The notes under the pieces are model-generated. The model saw nothing but the letters and a program-made list of their open reading frames with translations, ran no database searches and was not told the origin of the DNA. From positions 1 to 58,296 of the forward strand of contig CANASP010000013.1 in NCBI GenBank assembly GCA_947364365.1: a stretch of 58,296 nucleotides of DNA, given 5' to 3'. This DNA comes from an uncultured Alistipes sp. (GTDB lineage Bacteria; Bacteroidota; Bacteroidia; Bacteroidales; Rikenellaceae). The position numbers were made by a program, and so were the translations under genes. Within the stretch, counting starts at the first letter, position 1; the number at the start of each line of letters is the position of its first letter. Of the stretch, positions 2,677-58,296 are shown one piece after another.

Positions 2677-3743
2677 CGGACGAAGATTTTGAGCAGCAGC
2701 TCGCGCAGCAGTTCGCCGTCGGAGAGGCCGCCGGCGTTGAGTCCCTTGCTCCGGGCGTCGTATTCGCGCAGCAGCCCGAGGATGCGGAAGACGTGGCGGT
2801 TATCCCATGCGGGTGCCGTCTGCTTGATCTCGGCCACGGCATAGGGGTTGTTCACGCGCAGCAGCTTCATCAGCTCGCCGTCGGAGGGGATGGCGACCCC
2901 CTTGCGGCGGCTCTGCCAGCGCAGGTAGTTCATCGTGAAGAGCTGGCGGAACTGGTTGAAGAGCGCCACGACGGTGACCACGAGCGGATTCTCCTTGGGG
3001 TTGCGGGCGAAGTGGTCGGCGATGCGCAGGGCGCGTGCGACGTCGCGGTCGACGACCGCCTTGCACAGCTCGAAGTTGTTGAACTCCTTCGAGATGCCGA
3101 TGTGGGTCTCGATGTCGGCGTCGGTGATCCGCTGCGTCCCTTCGGGCAGCGAGACGGAGAGCTTGTCCAGCTCGCCGGCGATGCGGGCGATGTCGGTTCC
3201 CAGGTGGTCGGTGAGCATCGCGGCGGCCTTGGGGTCAATGGCGAACCCCTTGCTGCGGACGAACTGCTGGAGCCAGGGGCCGATCTCGTAGTCGCGCGGA
3301 CGGACCGATTCGAGCACGGCGCCGTTGGCCGCGCACCCCTTGTAGAAGGCCGAGCGCTTGTCGACGTTCTTCTCCTTGTGGCAGACGACGAGAATGGTCG
3401 TGGGTGAGGGCTTCTGGGTGTAGAGCGAGAGCTTGTCGATGCCGCGCAGCTGTTGCGCCTCGCGCAGGATCACCACCTGGTACGAGCCCATCATGGGCAT
3501 CTGGCGGCAGAGGTTGATCACCTGTCCCGCCTCCGAGTCCTTGCCGTAGACGGTGATCTGGTTGAAGGCGCGGGCGGCCTCGTCGAGGATCGTCGCGGCC
3601 AGACGGTCGGCCACGCGGTCGATGAAGTAGCTCTCCTCGCCCATGAGGAGGTATATCGGGGCGAAACGGCGGGCGTCGATCTCGCCCAGCAGCGCGTCGG
3701 TCCGGGCGACCGAGTCGCGGAATTTCACAGTGCTTTTGGCCAT
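2673..3743 (-). CDS. holA: DNA polymerase III delta subunit
   Basis: The delta subunit of the clamp loader opens the beta sliding clamp during replication. The 356-residue length is normal. The N-terminal AAA+-like domain contains FAPIYLLMGEESYFIDRVA, the typical start of delta, and YQVVILREAQQL. The middle has LYTQKPSPTTILVVCHKEKNVDK, as in bacterial delta, and the C-terminal domain is helical (LFTMNYLRWQSRRKG). It starts 3 nt after the tilS stop and overlaps the next gene by 4 nt, so it sits within an operon. Confidence 0.93.
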   Translation of the reverse strand: MAKSTVKFRDSVARTDALLGEIDARRFAPIYLLMGEESYFIDRVADRLAATILDEAARAFNQITVYGKDSEAGQVINLCRQMPMMGSYQVVILREAQQLRGIDKLSLYTQKPSPTTILVVCHKEKNVDKRSAFYKGCAANGAVLESVRPRDYEIGPWLQQFVRSKGFAIDPKAAAMLTDHLGTDIARIAGELDKLSVSLPEGTQRITDADIETHIGISKEFNNFELCKAVVDRDVARALRIADHFARNPKENPLVVTVVALFNQFRQLFTMNYLRWQSRRKGVAIPSDGELMKLLRVNNPYAVAEIKQTAPAWDNRHVFRILGLLREYDARSKGLNAGGLSDGELLRELLLKIFVR

Positions 3744-29904: not shown

Positions 29905-32145
29905 TCAGCGCCTATTGCGGCGCGTTGAGCGGCCCACGCGGGGAGAGGTGCCACGTGCGGCCTGACCCTTCGTGCGGCGCTGGGGAAGGCCGTCGATCAC
30001 CAGCTCGAAGTCGAGCTGGCGCTTCTGCAGGTCGGCGCGCTTCACGCGCACGCGCACCGGGTCGCCCAGCGTCATGCGGCGGCCCGTCGAGCGGCCCACG
30101 ATCTCGTAGGTCGCCTCCTCGAAGTCGAAGAAGTCGCCCTCGATGTCGCGCAGGAACGACATGCCCTCGATATGGGTGTCGTCCAGCTCGACGTAGACGC
30201 CCCACTCGGTGAGTCCCGAGATGTGGCCCGCGAACTCCTGCCCGAGGCGCTCCTTCATGAACTCCACGGCCTTGTACTTGATCGAGGCGCGTTCGGCCTC
30301 GGCGGCGATGACCTCGCGCTCCGAGGCGCGCTCGCACAGCGCTTCGAGCGCTTCGCGGTCGGCCGACTTGCCGCCGTCGAGGTAGCGCGCCAGCAGGCGG
30401 TGGACCATCATGTCGGGGTAGCGGCGGATGGGCGAGGTGAAGTGGGTGTAGTAGGGGAAGGCCAGGCCGTAGTGGCCGATGTTGTCGGTCGAGTAGTAGG
30501 CCTTGGCCATCGACCGCACGGCCATCGTCGAGACGGCGTTCTCCTCGGCCGTGCCCTTCACCTGCTTGAGGAGCTTGTTCATCTCCTTGGCCACGGCGCG
30601 CCCCTTCTGCGCCTTGAAGATGTGGCCGAAGCGCAGGATGAACTGGCGGAAGCGGTCGAGCTTCTCCTCGCTCGGGGTGTCGTGCACGCGGTAGACCATC
30701 GTGCGGGCGACGCTGCGCCCCTTGTCGGTCTTGCGGCGGCCGCAGAACTCGGCCACGCGGCGGTTGGCCAGCAGCATGAACTCCTCGATCATCTGGTTGG
30801 CCTCCTGCTGGACCTTGAAGTAGACGTCGACGGGGCGGCCCGCCTCGTCGAGGCGGAACTTCATCTCCTCGCGGTCGAACGCCACGGCCCCCTCCTTGAA
30901 GCGGCGCGCGCGCAGCGCCTGCGCCAGGCGGTTGAGCGTCAGCACCTCCTCGGCGTAGTCGCCGCGGCCGGTCTCGATGATCTGCTGCGCCTCGGCGTAG
31001 GTGAAGCGGCGGTTGGAGTAGATCGCCGTGCGGCCGAACCACTCGTCGCGCAGCGTGAGATCCTCGTCGAGGGTGAAGACGGCCGAGAAGCAGAGGCTCG
31101 TCTCGTTGGGGCGCAGCGAGCAGAGCTCGTTGGAGAGCCGTTCGGGAAGCATCGGGATCGTGCGGTCGACCAGGTAGACCGACGTGCCGCGCTCGACCGC
31201 CTCGTCGTCGATCGTCGAGTGGGGCCGCACGTAGTGGGTCACGTCGGCGATGTGCACGCCGATCTCCCATACTCCGTCGCCCACCTTCCTGACCGACAGC
31301 GCGTCGTCGAAATCCTTGGCGTCGGCCGGGTCGACGGTGAAGGTCACCGTGTCGCGGAAGTCGCGCCGGCGGGCGATCTCCTGCTCCGTCACGCGGCCGT
31401 CGATCGCGGCGGCAGCCTGCTCGATCTCGGGCTCGAAACGGTACGGCAGGTCGTATTCGGCCAGGATGGCGTGCATCTCGGTGTCGTTGTTGCCGGCCAT
31501 GCCCAGCCGCTCGACCAGCTCGCCCGTGGGGCTCTTGCTGCCCGCCGTCCAGTCGACGATCCTCACGACGACCTTCTCGCCGTCGCGCACGTCGGGATAC
31601 TGGCGCTTCGAGAGGTAGATGTCCATGGGCATGCGGCGCGAGTCGGCCCGCACGAAGATCTGGTGGGCGCCCACCTCCGCCACGCCCACGTAGGGCTTGC
31701 GGTTGCGCTCGACGATCGCCGTGATCTCGCCCTCGGGCTGGCCGCTGCGGCCGCGCTGCATGACGACCACCTCCACGCGGTCGCCGTCGAGCGCCGTCGA
31801 GGCGTTGCGCTGGTGGACGTAGATGTCCTGCTCCTGCCCCTCGACGCGCACGTAGACCGCGCCGCTCTGCGTCATGTCGGCCACCCCCTCGAAGCGGGGC
31901 AGGTGGCGGGGCGCCAGGCGGTATTTCTCGCGGGCGCACTCCTCGACGACCCCTTCGTCGAAGAGGCGGCCGAGGATCTCCAGCGTCTCGCGGCGCCCCT
32001 CCTTCGAGGCACCGCCCGAGGCGGCAGCGAGCTGCTTGAGCGAGAATTTGTTGTTGGGAAGTTCGCGCAGCAGCTGCATGATCATCGCTGCGCGATCCGA
32101 TTTTGCGGCCCCCTTTGCGGAGCCGCGTTGTGTTCGTTTGTTCAT
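29905..32145 (-). CDS. rnr: ribonuclease R
   Basis: Processive 3'-5' exoribonuclease that degrades structured RNA. The 746-residue protein has an N-terminal winged-helix region (NNKFSLKQLAAASGG), two cold-shock OB domains (GAVYVRVEGQEQDIYVHQRN), the RNB catalytic domain with DPADAKDFDDAL (Asp272, 275, 280, 281) and HYGLAFPYYTHFTSPIRRYPD, and a C-terminal S1 domain (EFAGHISGLTEWGVYVELDD). The tail is rich in Arg. ATG 32145 overlaps the amidohydrolase stop by 4 nt (ATGA), so translation is coupled. The frame stays open far upstream, but that is an antisense shadow of the amidohydrolase gene. Confidence 0.97.
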   Translation of the reverse strand: MNKRTQRGSAKGAAKSDRAAMIMQLLRELPNNKFSLKQLAAASGGASKEGRRETLEILGRLFDEGVVEECAREKYRLAPRHLPRFEGVADMTQSGAVYVRVEGQEQDIYVHQRNASTALDGDRVEVVVMQRGRSGQPEGEITAIVERNRKPYVGVAEVGAHQIFVRADSRRMPMDIYLSKRQYPDVRDGEKVVVRIVDWTAGSKSPTGELVERLGMAGNNDTEMHAILAEYDLPYRFEPEIEQAAAAIDGRVTEQEIARRRDFRDTVTFTVDPADAKDFDDALSVRKVGDGVWEIGVHIADVTHYVRPHSTIDDEAVERGTSVYLVDRTIPMLPERLSNELCSLRPNETSLCFSAVFTLDEDLTLRDEWFGRTAIYSNRRFTYAEAQQIIETGRGDYAEEVLTLNRLAQALRARRFKEGAVAFDREEMKFRLDEAGRPVDVYFKVQQEANQMIEEFMLLANRRVAEFCGRRKTDKGRSVARTMVYRVHDTPSEEKLDRFRQFILRFGHIFKAQKGRAVAKEMNKLLKQVKGTAEENAVSTMAVRSMAKAYYSTDNIGHYGLAFPYYTHFTSPIRRYPDMMVHRLLARYLDGGKSADREALEALCERASEREVIAAEAERASIKYKAVEFMKERLGQEFAGHISGLTEWGVYVELDDTHIEGMSFLRDIEGDFFDFEEATYEIVGRSTGRRMTLGDPVRVRVKRADLQKRQLDFELVIDGLPQRRTKGQAARGTSPRVGRSTRRNRR

Positions 32146-33254
32146 TTTTCCAATAATTGCAGGGCGAGGCTCCGCATGAAGCCGATGCCCGTCTCGATGG
32201 CCCCTTCGTCGGGTGAGAACGTCGCCGTGTGGGGCCTTCCGGCGGCGTGGCCCACGCCCAGCCGGTAGAAGAGGGCGGGGTAGTGGAGCGTGTAGAAGCC
32301 GAAATCCTCGGCCGTGGTGCGCAGCGGCAGCATCTCGACGCCCAGCCCCTGCGTGCGGGCCAGCGCCGTGGCGCGCGCGACCAGCGCCGGGTCGTTGACC
32401 ACGGGCGGGTAGCCGCGCGAGATGTCGACCGCCGTGCGGGTGCCGTGGCGGGCGTCGACCTCGGCCGCGATCGCGGCGATGCGCTGCCGCGTGCGGTCGC
32501 CCTCTGCGACGTCGAACGTGCGCAGTGTCCCCTCCATCCGCACCCGGTCGGGTACGACGTTGGTGGCTCCGGCGGCCTCCACGCGACCGATGGAGAGCAC
32601 CCGCTCGGGGGCGTTGAGCGTCAGCAGACCGGTGATCAGGTCGGCGGCAGCGGCCACCGGGTCGCGCAGCTGGGCGCGCAGGGCGCCGTGGCCGCCCGCA
32701 CCTTCGACGGTGAAGCGCAGTTCGTCGCTCGCGGCCATGTACTTGCCGGCGCGGAAGCCGAGCGTGCCCACTTCGAGCTGCGGCTCGACGTGCTCGCCCA
32801 CGACGGCGAGGATGTCGTAGTCGTCGAACGGCCGCTCCGCGAGCACCAGCGAAGCGCCGCCCGGGTTGCACTCCTCGCCGGGCTGGAAGAGGCCGAGCAG
32901 GGTCCCCGCGAAGTCGGGGGCCGCGGCGATTTCGCGCAATACGCCGTAGAGCACCGCGGCGTGCATGTCGTGGCCGCAGGCGTGCATCACCCCTTCGTTC
33001 TGCGAGGCGCAGGCCAGGAGGGTCCGTTCGGCGATGGGCAGGGCGTCGATGTCGGCGCGCAGGACGACGGCGCGCTGGTCGCCCGGGGCGGTGCGGCGCC
33101 CCTCGATGCGGGCCAGGATGCCCGTGCCGGCCACCGGGCGGTGGTCGATGCCCAGTTCGGAGAGCCGTTCGGCGATGAAGGCGGCGGTGTCGTGCTCGGC
33201 GAACGAGAGCTCGGGATGCGCGTGCAGATGACGGCGGAATTCGACAGGTGTCAT
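32142..33254 (-). CDS. M20 family amidohydrolase (N-acyl-amino-acid or peptidase type)
   Basis: Dizinc hydrolase of the M20D group that removes acyl groups from amino acids or cleaves small peptides; cytoplasmic (no signal). The 370-residue protein contains RRHLHAHPELSF, VLRADIDALPI, MHACGHDMHAAVLYG (metal-binding His residues), LGLFQPGEECNPGG and GAGGHGALRAQLRDP, ending TAEDFGFYTLHYPALFYRLG. The substrate cannot be read from sequence. ATG 33254 (MTPVEFRRHL) is chosen because a TTG four codons upstream falls inside the -7 box of the nearest promoter copy. It is first in a two-gene unit with rnr. Confidence 0.92.
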   Translation of the reverse strand: MTPVEFRRHLHAHPELSFAEHDTAAFIAERLSELGIDHRPVAGTGILARIEGRRTAPGDQRAVVLRADIDALPIAERTLLACASQNEGVMHACGHDMHAAVLYGVLREIAAAPDFAGTLLGLFQPGEECNPGGASLVLAERPFDDYDILAVVGEHVEPQLEVGTLGFRAGKYMAASDELRFTVEGAGGHGALRAQLRDPVAAAADLITGLLTLNAPERVLSIGRVEAAGATNVVPDRVRMEGTLRTFDVAEGDRTRQRIAAIAAEVDARHGTRTAVDISRGYPPVVNDPALVARATALARTQGLGVEMLPLRTTAEDFGFYTLHYPALFYRLGVGHAAGRPHTATFSPDEGAIETGIGFMRSLALQLLEK

Positions 33255-33263
33255 AGTGAAGGA

Positions 33264-33508
33264 CAAAGATACGAAGAGCCGAGGGCAATGCCAAATTTAT
33301 TTGCGCATTGCCGAGGCCGAGTATCTTCGGCGAAGCCAAAGATACGAATAAGCCGAGAGGAAACCAAAACTTGTTCTGAGCTTCCCGAGGCGCAGCCGAA
33401 GTCAAAGATACGAATAAGTGAGGGCAATGCCAAATTTATTTGTGCATTGCCGAGGCCGAGTATCTTCGGCGCAGCCAAAGATACGAATAAGTGAGGGCAA
33501 TGCACAAA
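33264..33508 (-). promoter_or_regulatory. tandem array of four promoter-bearing repeats driving amidohydrolase-rnr
   Basis: Four copies of TATCTTTG read leftward at 33271-33264, 33344-33337, 33410-33403 and 33483-33476. Each is preceded by TTTG with a spacer of 20, 20, 20 and 21 nt (TTTG at 33295-33292, 33368-33365, 33434-33431, 33508-33505). The repeat period is 73, 66 and 73 bp. In the first and third copies the -33 box lies in a dyad, GGCAATG...CAAAT / ATTTG..CATTGCC. Between copies is a short GCCGA/TCGGC hairpin. The proximal promoter leaves a leader of only a few nt. Confidence 0.8.
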
Positions 33509-33794
33509 AGAGCCGGGTATCTGAACGGTACGAATAGGACAGGGTGGACCGAACCGGGTCGCGGACTGCGATGAGCGCACGGGCTGGCGGCTCTGCGCGT
33601 CGCGTCCCCTCTGACGGCCGGGCGATCCGTGGTCTTCCCGCTTGTGCGATCTATTGTAGATCGTATGTTTATAGATTGAAATTCCGCTTCGTCCGGTCGG
33701 TTCCGAAATATAGAACTAAAAAAAGTAGTTGCATATCCGTTTTGTTCGAAAAGATTCGTATATTGCGGTCGAATCCTAAAAAAATCAGACCATT
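33509..33794. other. intergenic sequence before the thioredoxin-like gene
   Basis: No gene is seen. The left part is GC-rich and unremarkable, with a decayed GGTACGAATAGG that resembles the repeat edge. The right part (about 33650-33790) is AT-richer and probably holds the promoter of the gene at 33795; TATATTGCGG at 33759-33768 is a possible -7 variant without a well-placed -33. Confidence 0.5.
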
Positions 33795-45514: not shown

Positions 45515-45555
45515 TAATTTTTAATTTTCAATTCTCAATTTTCAATTGTCAATTG

Positions 45556-45556
<1 letters not shown>
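45515..45556. repeat. heptanucleotide tandem repeat at the metH stop
   Basis: Six perfect-phase 7-bp units: TAATTTT, TAATTTT, CAATTCT, CAATTTT, CAATTGT, CAATTGT. The last base touches the metH stop codon. This is an AT-rich island in GC-rich surroundings. Confidence 0.8.
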
Positions 45557-49172
<3,616 letters not shown>

Positions 49173-55872: not shown

Positions 55873-55953
55873 TATATTTGGCTGCGCCGAATATACTCCC
55901 GCTCGGCAATGTTCAAATAAATTTGACATTGCCCTCGCTTATTCGTATATTTG
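55873..55953 (+). promoter_or_regulatory. promoter-bearing repeat upstream of tkt
   Basis: Two TATATTTG boxes (55873-55880 and 55946-55953) 73 bp apart. The second is preceded by TTTG (55922-55925) with 20-nt spacing and is the likely tkt promoter, 34 nt from the ATG. The sequence is a reverse-oriented relative of the repeats at 33264-33508, including GGCTGCGCCGAA, CTCGGCAATG, CAAATAAATTTG and CATTGCCCTCGCTTATTCG. Confidence 0.75.
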
Positions 55954-55987: not shown

Positions 55988-58021
55988 ATGTCAACCAATC
56001 CCAAACTTGTTGCGCGCGTAGCCGACAACATCCGTATTCTGTCGGCCGCTATGGTCGAAAAAGCGAAATCGGGCCATCCCGGCGGCGCGATGGGCGGCGC
56101 CGACTTCATGGCGGTGCTCTATGCCGAGTATCTGCGTTACGATCCCCGCCGGATGGACTATCCCTTCCGCGACCGGTTCTTCCTCGACCCGGGCCACATG
56201 TCGCCGATGCTCTACGCCGTGCTCTCGATGGCCGGGTGCTACTCGATCGACGACCTGAAGTCGCTGCGCCAGTGGGGCAGCGTCACCCCGGGCCACCCCG
56301 AGGTCGATGTCCTGCGCGGCGTGGAGAACACCTCGGGTCCGCTGGGCCAGGGCCATGCGATGGCGCTGGGCGCAGCGATCGTCGAGCGCTTCATGGTCGC
56401 CCGCTTCGGCGAGTGGATGGCCCACAAGACCTACGCCTACGTGTCGGACGGCGCCATCGAGGAGGAGATCTCGCAGGGCGTGGGCCGCATCGCCGGCCAC
56501 CTGGGACTGGCGAACTTCATCATGTACTACGACGCCAACAACGTCCAGCTCTCGACGACGGTCGACGAGGTCGACACGGAGGATATCCGCATGAAGTACG
56601 AGGCGTGGAACTGGCGCGTCATCGAGATCGACGGACATGATATCGAGGCGATCCGTGCCGCGCTCGATGCGGCCAATGCCGAGACCGAGCGCCCGACGCT
56701 CATCGTCGGCCGCACGGTGATGGGCAAGGGTGCGCTGGGCCCCGGCGGCGAGAGCTTCGAGAACAAGGTCTCGACCCACGGTCAGCCCCTCACGGCCGCC
56801 GGTGCCGATATCGACGCCACGATCCGCAACCTGGGCGGCGATCCGGCCGATCCGTTCGTTGTGTTCGACGAGAGCCGCGACCTCTTCGCCGCACGCCGTG
56901 CCGAACTCGCGGCATGGGCCGACGAGCGCGCCGCCGTCGAGAAGCAGTGGCGCTCGGAGCACAAGGACCTGGCGCGCAAGCTCGATACGTTCCTCTCGGG
57001 CGAGCTCCCCGAGATCGATTACAAGTCGATCGAGGTCAAGGCCGACGGCCCCACGCGCGGTGCTTCGGCCACGGTGCTGGGCGTCTATGCCGAGAAGGTC
57101 GAGAACATGATCGTCGCTTCGGCCGACCTTTCGAACTCGGACAAGACCGACGGCTTCCTCAAGAAGACCCACGCCTTCGCGAAGGGTGACTTCACGGGCC
57201 GCTTCTTCCAGGCGGGCGTCTCGGAGCTGACGATGGCCTGCGTGATGAACGGCATGGCGCTCCACGGCGGCGTCATCCCCGCCTGCGGCACCTTCTTCGT
57301 CTTCTCCGACTACATGAAGCCGGCCATCCGCCTCTCGGCGCTCATGCGGCTGCATGTCATCTATGTCTGGAGCCACGACTCGTTCCGCGTGGGCGAGGAC
57401 GGTCCTACGCACCAGCCCGTCGAGCACGAGATGCAGATCCGTCTGATGGAGCACCTGCGCAACCACAGCGGCGAGCGCTCGATGCTCGTGCTGCGTCCGG
57501 CCGACGGCGACGAGGCGGTGATGGCCTGGAAGATGGCGCTCGAAGAGCAGCGTCCCGTGGGGCTTATCTTCTCGCGTCAGAATGTCAAGTCGCTGCCCCA
57601 GCTGTCGCGCAGTCGCCGCGAGGAGGCCGCCCAGATCGCCAAGGGCGGCTACGTGGTGATGGATGCCGCCAAACCCGCCGCCGTGCTGGTCGCTTCGGGT
57701 TCGGAGGTCTCGACCCTGATTGACGGCGCGACGAAACTCGCCGCCGAGGGGATCGCCGTGCGCGTGGTGAGCGTCCCGAGCGAGGGGCTCTTCCGCGATC
57801 AGCCCAAATCCTATCAGGAGAGCGTGCTGCCTGCCGGCATCGTCCGCTACGGTCTCACGTCGGGGCTTCCCCTGACGTTGCAGGGGCTCGTGGGCGAGCA
57901 CGGCGCGATCCACGGTCTCGACCACTTCGGCTACTCGGCGCCCTTCAAGGTGCTCGACGAGAAGTTCGGTTACAACGGAGATACCGTAGCCGCCGAGGTG
58001 AAGCAGTTGCTCGGGAAATAG
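55988..58021 (+). CDS. tkt: transketolase
   Basis: TPP enzyme moving two-carbon units between sugar phosphates in the pentose phosphate pathway. The 677-residue full-length protein contains SGHPGGAMGGADFMAVLY, DPGHMSPMLYAVLSMAG, ENTSGPLGQGHAMALGAA, the TPP/metal region YVSDGAIEEEISQG with DANNVQLS (the Bacteroidota form; many others have GDG), MGKGALGPG, the pyrimidine domain FFQAGVSELTMACVMNGMAL and FRVGEDGPTHQPVEH. ATG 55988 follows the promoter by 34 nt. The final codons (AEVKQLLGK, stop) are the first copy of the 73-bp tandem repeat that follows. Confidence 0.97.
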   Translation: MSTNPKLVARVADNIRILSAAMVEKAKSGHPGGAMGGADFMAVLYAEYLRYDPRRMDYPFRDRFFLDPGHMSPMLYAVLSMAGCYSIDDLKSLRQWGSVTPGHPEVDVLRGVENTSGPLGQGHAMALGAAIVERFMVARFGEWMAHKTYAYVSDGAIEEEISQGVGRIAGHLGLANFIMYYDANNVQLSTTVDEVDTEDIRMKYEAWNWRVIEIDGHDIEAIRAALDAANAETERPTLIVGRTVMGKGALGPGGESFENKVSTHGQPLTAAGADIDATIRNLGGDPADPFVVFDESRDLFAARRAELAAWADERAAVEKQWRSEHKDLARKLDTFLSGELPEIDYKSIEVKADGPTRGASATVLGVYAEKVENMIVASADLSNSDKTDGFLKKTHAFAKGDFTGRFFQAGVSELTMACVMNGMALHGGVIPACGTFFVFSDYMKPAIRLSALMRLHVIYVWSHDSFRVGEDGPTHQPVEHEMQIRLMEHLRNHSGERSMLVLRPADGDEAVMAWKMALEEQRPVGLIFSRQNVKSLPQLSRSRREEAAQIAKGGYVVMDAAKPAAVLVASGSEVSTLIDGATKLAAEGIAVRVVSVPSEGLFRDQPKSYQESVLPAGIVRYGLTSGLPLTLQGLVGEHGAIHGLDHFGYSAPFKVLDEKFGYNGDTVAAEVKQLLGK

Positions 58022-58296
58022 CGCGATGCCGGTCTTGCCTCGGCGGCAACGAATTCTGAGTTGCGCCGAGGTGAAGCAATTGCTCGGGAAATAGCGCGAT
58101 GCCGGTCTTGCCTCGGCGGCAACGAATCCTGCGTTGCGCCGAGGTGAAGCAGTTGCTCGGGAAATAGCGTGATGCCGGTCTTGCCTCGGCGGCAACGAAT
58201 CCTGAGTTGCGCCGAGGTGAAGCAGTTGCTCGGAAAATAGTGCGATGCCGGTCTTGCCTCGGCGGCAACGAATCCTGCGTTGCGCCGAGGTGAAGC
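57991..58296. repeat. 73-bp tandem repeat beginning in the tkt 3' end
   Basis: Units start with CGCCGAGGTGAAGCAG at 57991, 58064, 58137, 58210 and 58283, exactly 73 bp apart; the last is cut by the window. Each unit repeats the last ten tkt codons and stop plus 42 nt of downstream sequence. CCTCGGCGGCAAC and GTTGCGCCGAGG form a near-perfect hairpin in every unit (58038-58071 in the first). Copies differ by only a few bases. No T-run follows the hairpins. Confidence 0.92.

Follow-up and report, generated by a model that had tools for sequence, protein, structure and literature searches.

A 73-bp hairpin unit that ends on the -7 box of promoters in Alistipes, dispersed and in tandem arrays in front of many genes

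Why should a single gene be preceded by four promoters in a row? In the DNA from an uncultured Alistipes sp. analysed here (the window, that is, the whole stretch of 58,296 nucleotides), four leftward matches to TTTG-N20/21-TATCTTTG lie at 33264-33295, 33337-33368, 33403-33434, and 33476-33508, ahead of a gene pair formed by an M20 peptidase-family gene and rnr. A preliminary description had read them as four promoters in units of 66-73 bp with a diverged second copy, had held that promoter function was selected in each copy, had pointed to an opposite-strand relative near tkt, and had called the repeat a dispersed, possibly mobile promoter element, a view against which copies lying away from genes or in random orientation would speak. 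All four leftward copies were recovered, as was the relative before tkt, and the general promoter pattern has seven matches in the window compared with a mean of 0.01 in 100 shuffles. The features concerned are as follows.

33264..33336, minus strand: gene-proximal complete unit, with its -7 box at 33264-33271 and its -33 TTTG at 33292-33295
33284..33312, minus strand: hairpin H2 of the proximal unit, stem GGCAATGC/GCATTGCC, with the -33 TTTG within its 3' arm
33321..33345, minus strand: hairpin H1, palindrome GTATCTTTGGC-TTC-GCCGAAGATAC, formed by the first bases of the unit together with the -7 box next upstream
33337..33402, minus strand: second unit, diverged, 66 bp, box at 33337-33344 and TTTG at 33365-33368
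33403..33475, minus strand: third unit, complete, box at 33403-33410, TTTG at 33431-33434, H2 at 33423-33451
33460..33484, minus strand: hairpin H1 spanning the junction of the third and fourth units, as read from the sequence
33476..33508, minus strand: fourth, upstream partial unit (promoter half), box at 33476-33483 and TTTG at 33505-33508
32142..33254, minus strand: M20 peptidase-family gene directly downstream of the array, ATG 9 nt past the proximal box
29905..32085, minus strand: RNase R-type gene (rnr), after the M20 gene
55873..55880, plus strand: second TATATTTG box, immediately 5' of the tkt unit, taken to be the native -7 box
55881..55953, plus strand: single unit before tkt, its 3' end being a TATATTTG box and its H1 arm GAATATAC fitting the TATATTTG box variant
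55988..58021, plus strand: transketolase gene (tkt), ATG 34 nt past the box (the gene caller picked a later start, 56051)

The copies of the M20 array follow one another at steps of 73, 66, and 73 bp. The first and third copies share 93% identity over 89 nt, the dyad of copy two is altered, and copy four comprises the promoter half of the unit only. Tandem Repeats Finder, run at score 50, did not report this array, probably because the 66-bp copy disrupts the period. All four -7 boxes and all -33 elements are intact, and the predicted folding of the array reaches a z of -6.45. The M20 gene is most likely transcribed from the gene-proximal unit. Two other repeats occur in the window: a 73-bp tandem repeat at 57991-58296 (4.2 copies, 95% matches), which covers the 3' end of tkt at the window end, is unrelated to the promoter unit by eye, and may explain why the contig ends there; and a 7-nt AATTTTC-type repeat at 45516-45558 with six copies.

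The unit consists of two hairpins and a promoter; its 3' end falls on the -7 box of the gene and its 5' end often adjoins another box. Read in promoter orientation, a typical unit runs GCTTCGCCGAAGATACTC-variable-CTCGGCAAAATGC..GCTTTTGCCCTCGCTTATTCGTATCTTTG. The palindrome H1 has a centre whose length differs among units, and the stem of H2 varies widely in sequence, with a tendency for pairing to persist. There are no MITE-type repeats at the very termini; by eye, an AAGATAC close to the 5' end and a GTATCTT at the 3' end can pair. By its sequence, the promoter within the unit is of the known sigma-ABfr type, for which part of the text of PMC7366714 gives a Bacteroidota consensus of TAnnTTTG at -7 and TTTG at -33. 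Among boxes intact as TAnnTTTG, a TTG stands at 19-22 bp in 81/81 terminal and 35/39 internal cases.

How widely is this unit distributed? A search of the genome and its relatives for the 73-bp unit, as the preliminary description had proposed, gave 53 matches to the 73-75 bp element in the source genome (DNA search; 2.15 Mb, 87% complete). Of 61 genomes that counted the source among them, 9 have unit matches, and copies are numerous in the source and four relatives (G002, G007, G009, and G012). Within the genus, 33 of 180 genomes matched a whole-element pattern, the richest with 39 copies, while a reversed control pattern matched none; across the order the whole-element pattern matched 2 of 393 genomes, one of which is the source. 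The pattern of box plus first hairpin was found in at least 114 stretches. Among the 80 titles listed, 56 are Alistipes (hand count), and others among the matches listed are Prevotella/Prevotellaceae, other Rikenellaceae, Muribaculaceae, Marinilabiliaceae, Porphyromonadaceae, and unplaced Bacteroidales, with one labelled Ruminococcus flavefaciens. Alistipes muris DSM 112343, a cultured strain, is among the carriers of matches. Carriage by phages was considered and rejected, two exact element patterns having 0 matches among viral contigs. Within the source genome, all 47 complete units are distinct; the identity of each to its closest counterpart at a different locus has a median of 0.93, and reaches at least 95% in 17 of the 47.

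A profile search of the window and 87 further stretches, which were picked for containing matches and carry home-made gene calls, yielded 198 unit matches in 96 arrays. For the relatives, scoring covered the 15 best candidates of each genome, so that their arrays sample the most similar part; arrays, orthologs, and tandem copies are non-independent observations. The next gene is co-directional in 90 of the 96 arrays and opposite in two, both with a degenerate TATCTTCG box; in four there is no gene in the stretch. In the source genome, 32 of 34 arrays face a co-directional gene, one faces an opposite gene, and one has no gene in the stretch. Copies mainly away from genes or in random orientation were thus not seen. 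The genes behind the arrays are of many kinds with no evident common function, and include, as we take it from their proteins, dnaX, lepA, uvrA, truA, asnS, aroQ, and tkt. One trait of mobile promoters, homology of the promoter but not of the genes behind it within a genome, is accordingly present (32/34 own arrays).

The distance from box to ATG has a median of 21 nt over 28 arrays of the source genome, all at 60 nt or less (lower quartile 8.5 nt); in the relatives, where 51 arrays were measured and 47 lie at 60 nt or less, it is 23 nt (lower quartile 7 nt). In roughly a quarter of the arrays the ATG lies 7-9 nt from the box, which would yield nearly leaderless mRNAs; in Bacteroides thetaiotaomicron the commonest leader length is 23 nt and 5' UTRs under 10 nt are rare, at about 3.7%, according to part of the text of PMC7366714. 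The units resemble sigma-ABfr promoters in their terminal box and in a -33 at 19-22 bp spacing, but differ from ordinary ones in that the promoter here is part of a repeated hairpin unit before many genes and that some arrays lie nearer the ATG than usual. Nine arrays with an intact box lack an open frame of 80 aa within 160 nt. At L272 (match at 3247) the terminal box is followed by an apparent tRNA, by eye, and not by a protein gene. At L038:8799-8866, two opposite-strand unit matches overlap head to head on one H2, which gives divergent promoter boxes.

Are all promoters of an array kept? With the box taken as TAnnTTT[GA], and the 3 of 198 unit matches that lie next to N excluded, it is intact in 88 of 96 terminal units compared with 41 of 99 internal ones. 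The difference is seen in the source genome (31/34 versus 24/36, p 0.019) and in the relatives (57/62 versus 17/63, p 2e-14). The strict box gives 81/96 versus 39/99 over all units; in the source genome alone the strict difference is not significant (26/34 versus 24/36, p 0.43), as A is the last base of several terminal boxes. Among the 154 of 198 matches that are nearly full length, terminal boxes agree with the consensus at 0.951 and internal ones at 0.718; outside the box the values are 0.808 and 0.800, respectively. Internal boxes are broken in various ways (TTCG-ACTTTG, TACATTG, AACTTTG, TACTTTG, and GATATTTG). As they are broken while the unit body is kept, the upstream promoters are not generally retained, and there may be selection against them.

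The view that promoter function is selected in every copy is therefore not borne out in general, although it agrees with the M20 array, which has all four boxes intact and whose three internal ones suggest that it may be young or that they may be in use. That array and its -33 elements, along with the 24 of 36 intact internal boxes of the source genome, are what one would expect of four working tandem promoters selected to raise or buffer expression of M20 and rnr. The relatives' counts, the confinement of the extra divergence to the box, and the very different kinds of genes that arrays precede make this explanation quite improbable. The equal conservation of the unit body in internal copies, where the box is often broken, is in favour of units acting as regulatory sites, either through a protein that binds H2 or the CTCGCTTATTCG segment or through hairpins that act in RNA as terminators or attenuators. 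The predicted folding of the array is in keeping with this, as are the paired changes that conserve the H2 stem: over 35 distinct sequences of the source genome, pairing holds in 0.845 of cells (highest of 500 shuffles, 0.769), 44 cells show double changes (at most 27 in 500 shuffles), and slid registers give less pairing, in a count of only those 29-mers caught by one anchor pattern and with a shuffle control that ignores kinship. However, the H2 sequence is highly variable, the target genes lack an evident common function, no T-run follows H2 by eye, and many arrays occupy the space between divergent genes, a place where no stop to read-through is needed. A known RNA family was likewise sought and rejected, Rfam 15 having no match at E<=1 in 33200-33600 and none at gathering score in five stretches. 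We regard a regulatory role of these units as improbable.

What do the edges of the units tell us? Where the first unit of an array is complete (43 arrays), a strict TAnnTTTG stands just 5' of it in 16, and many of the others show near-boxes. Ten single-unit arrays have TAnnTTT[GA] on both sides, and the variable bases of the two boxes agree in nine of them (five TATC, four TATA). The H1 arm corresponds to the 3' box in 81 G-type cases with TATC and 10 T-type cases with TATA, with 3 exceptions, and to the 5' box in 42 and 5 cases, respectively, with 4 exceptions; these counts include tandem neighbours, which are non-independent. Two units of G012 (L077 and L081) have TATA-type boxes on both sides and a G-type arm. 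Two boxes that match while the arm differs favour a duplicated target. At L080 the boxes are unlike (TATATTTG upstream, TATCTTCG downstream), which would go against duplication.

Orthologous loci, whose comparison the preliminary description had suggested between strains, were compared here across species, and units are present in only a few loci of each gene, a variable presence among orthologs that is a further trait of mobile promoters. At lepA, TAnnTTTG lies within 130 nt in 27 of 30 species loci, in 24 of them 20-43 nt before the ATG, and units are found in two loci only, those of the source and G007. At ychF, a box is present in 19 of 29 usable loci and a unit match in four, with several units in G007 and G012 and one partial or degenerate unit each in G009 and G032; the source has a plain promoter. 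At tkt, 21 of 30 loci have a box and two have units, the source and G012. In G012 the stop of the upstream gene is followed by TATCTTTG, a three-match array, TATCTTTG, and the leader; in G013, G023, and G032 it is followed by box and leader. Other loci are less simple. Units precede the M20 gene in one of 30 loci, the window's own, and a box in three of 30, the window's included; in many other species the gene stands, by eye, closely behind the end of a different gene with no promoter box, so that the window's M20 gene is in a new neighbourhood and the locus is rearranged. At lptG, just 3-35 nt precede the gene in 25 of 30 relatives, which leaves no room for such a promoter, and no clean empty site was obtained among the 30. 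The lptG and M20 loci thus give no evidence of a pre-existing box at every site, and the comparison turned up no two close strains that differ by a unit at an otherwise identical site.

In L353, the lptG relative nearest by protein among those lacking a complete unit, a different gene lies upstream, and there is a hybrid in which a second repeat replaces half of the unit before an lptG-type gene. This second repeat, which ends GCGCTAATAAAAA..TTCG, joins the TATCTTTG box in some Alistipes loci (L353:1349-1500, L250, L274, L282, L313, L334, and L339).

We consider it probable that a dispersed hairpin element enters -7 boxes, carries its own -33, and restores the promoter, with arrays arising from repeated events. 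A non-coding 73-bp unit would arrive at the -7 box (TAnnTTTG) of an existing sigma-ABfr promoter, after which the order would be native promoter, box, unit, box, native leader, and ATG. The unit's -33 TTTG, in the 3' arm of the second hairpin, would lie 19-22 bp before the terminal box; as the 3' end of the unit would thereby supply a properly spaced -33, the gene would retain a complete promoter near the old distance from its ATG, and transcription would continue from almost the same place. Repeated arrival or local duplication at one box would build head-to-tail arrays of fixed orientation. The gene-proximal promoter would be kept, and the old promoter and the boxes displaced upstream would become redundant and decay. 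Speaking against this reading are the absence of a strict 5' box from most of the 43 arrays, the short box-to-ATG distances, the arm or box disagreements at L077, L081, and L080, and the lptG and M20 loci. The phrase dispersed, possibly mobile promoter element is upheld by copy number, orientation towards genes, and the ortholog comparison; what we infer is that the box serves as their way in for the units, that the terminal promoter works, and that movement, not recombination, spreads them.

Spread through recombination between shared boxes is the serious rival to this reading. Here there would be no transposition: homologous recombination or gene conversion would act between promoters that share TTCGTATCTTTG, and slippage between box copies would multiply units in place. 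The exact sharing of the box at both ends, the tandem steps of mostly 73-75 bp, and the 47 distinct complete units with their median best cross-locus identity of 0.93 are all compatible with such a process. However, native-looking upstream promoter sequence is kept, not replaced, 5' of several arrays; some species have many copies while 147 of the 180 genus genomes have no match to the pattern; and a shared sequence of 8-12 bp is, on general grounds, short for RecA-type exchange. On balance we think this route unlikely. Mobilisation of REP/REPIN elements by a RAYT (Y1) transposase would also place short palindromes across intergenic DNA. No transposase or integrase is linked to the element in a search that covered the Y1 family, and Y1_Tnp (PF01797) was found in 0 of 41 genus genomes, with a control that was positive in 5 of 14 known genomes; this result and the fixed orientation of units towards genes make a REPIN origin extremely improbable, and Y1/RAYT mobilisation was rejected.

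The element favoured above, which enters at -7 boxes, can be compared with several known systems. The attachment core of CTnDOT/IntDOT, GTAnnTTTGC, contains the -7 box, and H1 has the look of two inverted arms with a short centre between them. By analogy, this suggests a tyrosine-recombinase core site; such a reading is less likely because the length of the H1 centre differs from unit to unit, whereas a recombinase overlap would be fixed. Putative mobile promoters were reportedly described by Matus-Garcia in 2012 and van Passel in 2014 as similar promoter sequences before unrelated genes. Compared by description only, the present units share with them the similar promoter sequences ahead of unrelated genes, and differ in having a defined hairpin unit that ends exactly at the -7 box, tandem arrays of one orientation, and internal boxes that are often lost. 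Mobile promoters are an existing concept, as cited in part of the text of PMC8049555. With REPINs, as portrayed in part of the same article (PMC8049555), the units have in common that they are short, dispersed hairpin DNA, but there is no Y1 in the genus sample, the orientation is fixed, and the units contain a promoter. The nearest Bacteroidales repeat with promoter activity met in description is the BrickBuilt MITE of Porphyromonas gingivalis, which part of the text of PMC4596501 presents as a non-coding intergenic repeat with tandem content and promoter activity, built of 23-nt repeats between a leader and a tail, with inverted ends and bidirectional promoters, 49-591 nt from genes. To that extent, the unit is like BrickBuilt as a non-coding intergenic repeat of Bacteroidales with tandem content and a promoter, and unlike it in build and position, being 73 bp long and ending at the -7 box itself. 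Among the matches listed from open-licence PMC titles and abstract starts, this unit is not described.

It is conceivable, and we put it forward tentatively, that these units represent a family of mobile DNA that takes the -7 element of the main host promoter as its target and, through its own -33 half, gives back a working promoter. On this view, repeated and perfect-looking promoter boxes need not all be active, and lepA, ychF, and tkt offer natural sets of orthologous promoters with and without the element. If such a family does exist, a selfish or recombining repeat can occupy the most sensitive part of a gene harmlessly, entry before essential genes would be nearly without harm, and the promoters of a genome would gradually be rewritten with element sequence, which would make these units a source of promoter turnover in gut Bacteroidales.
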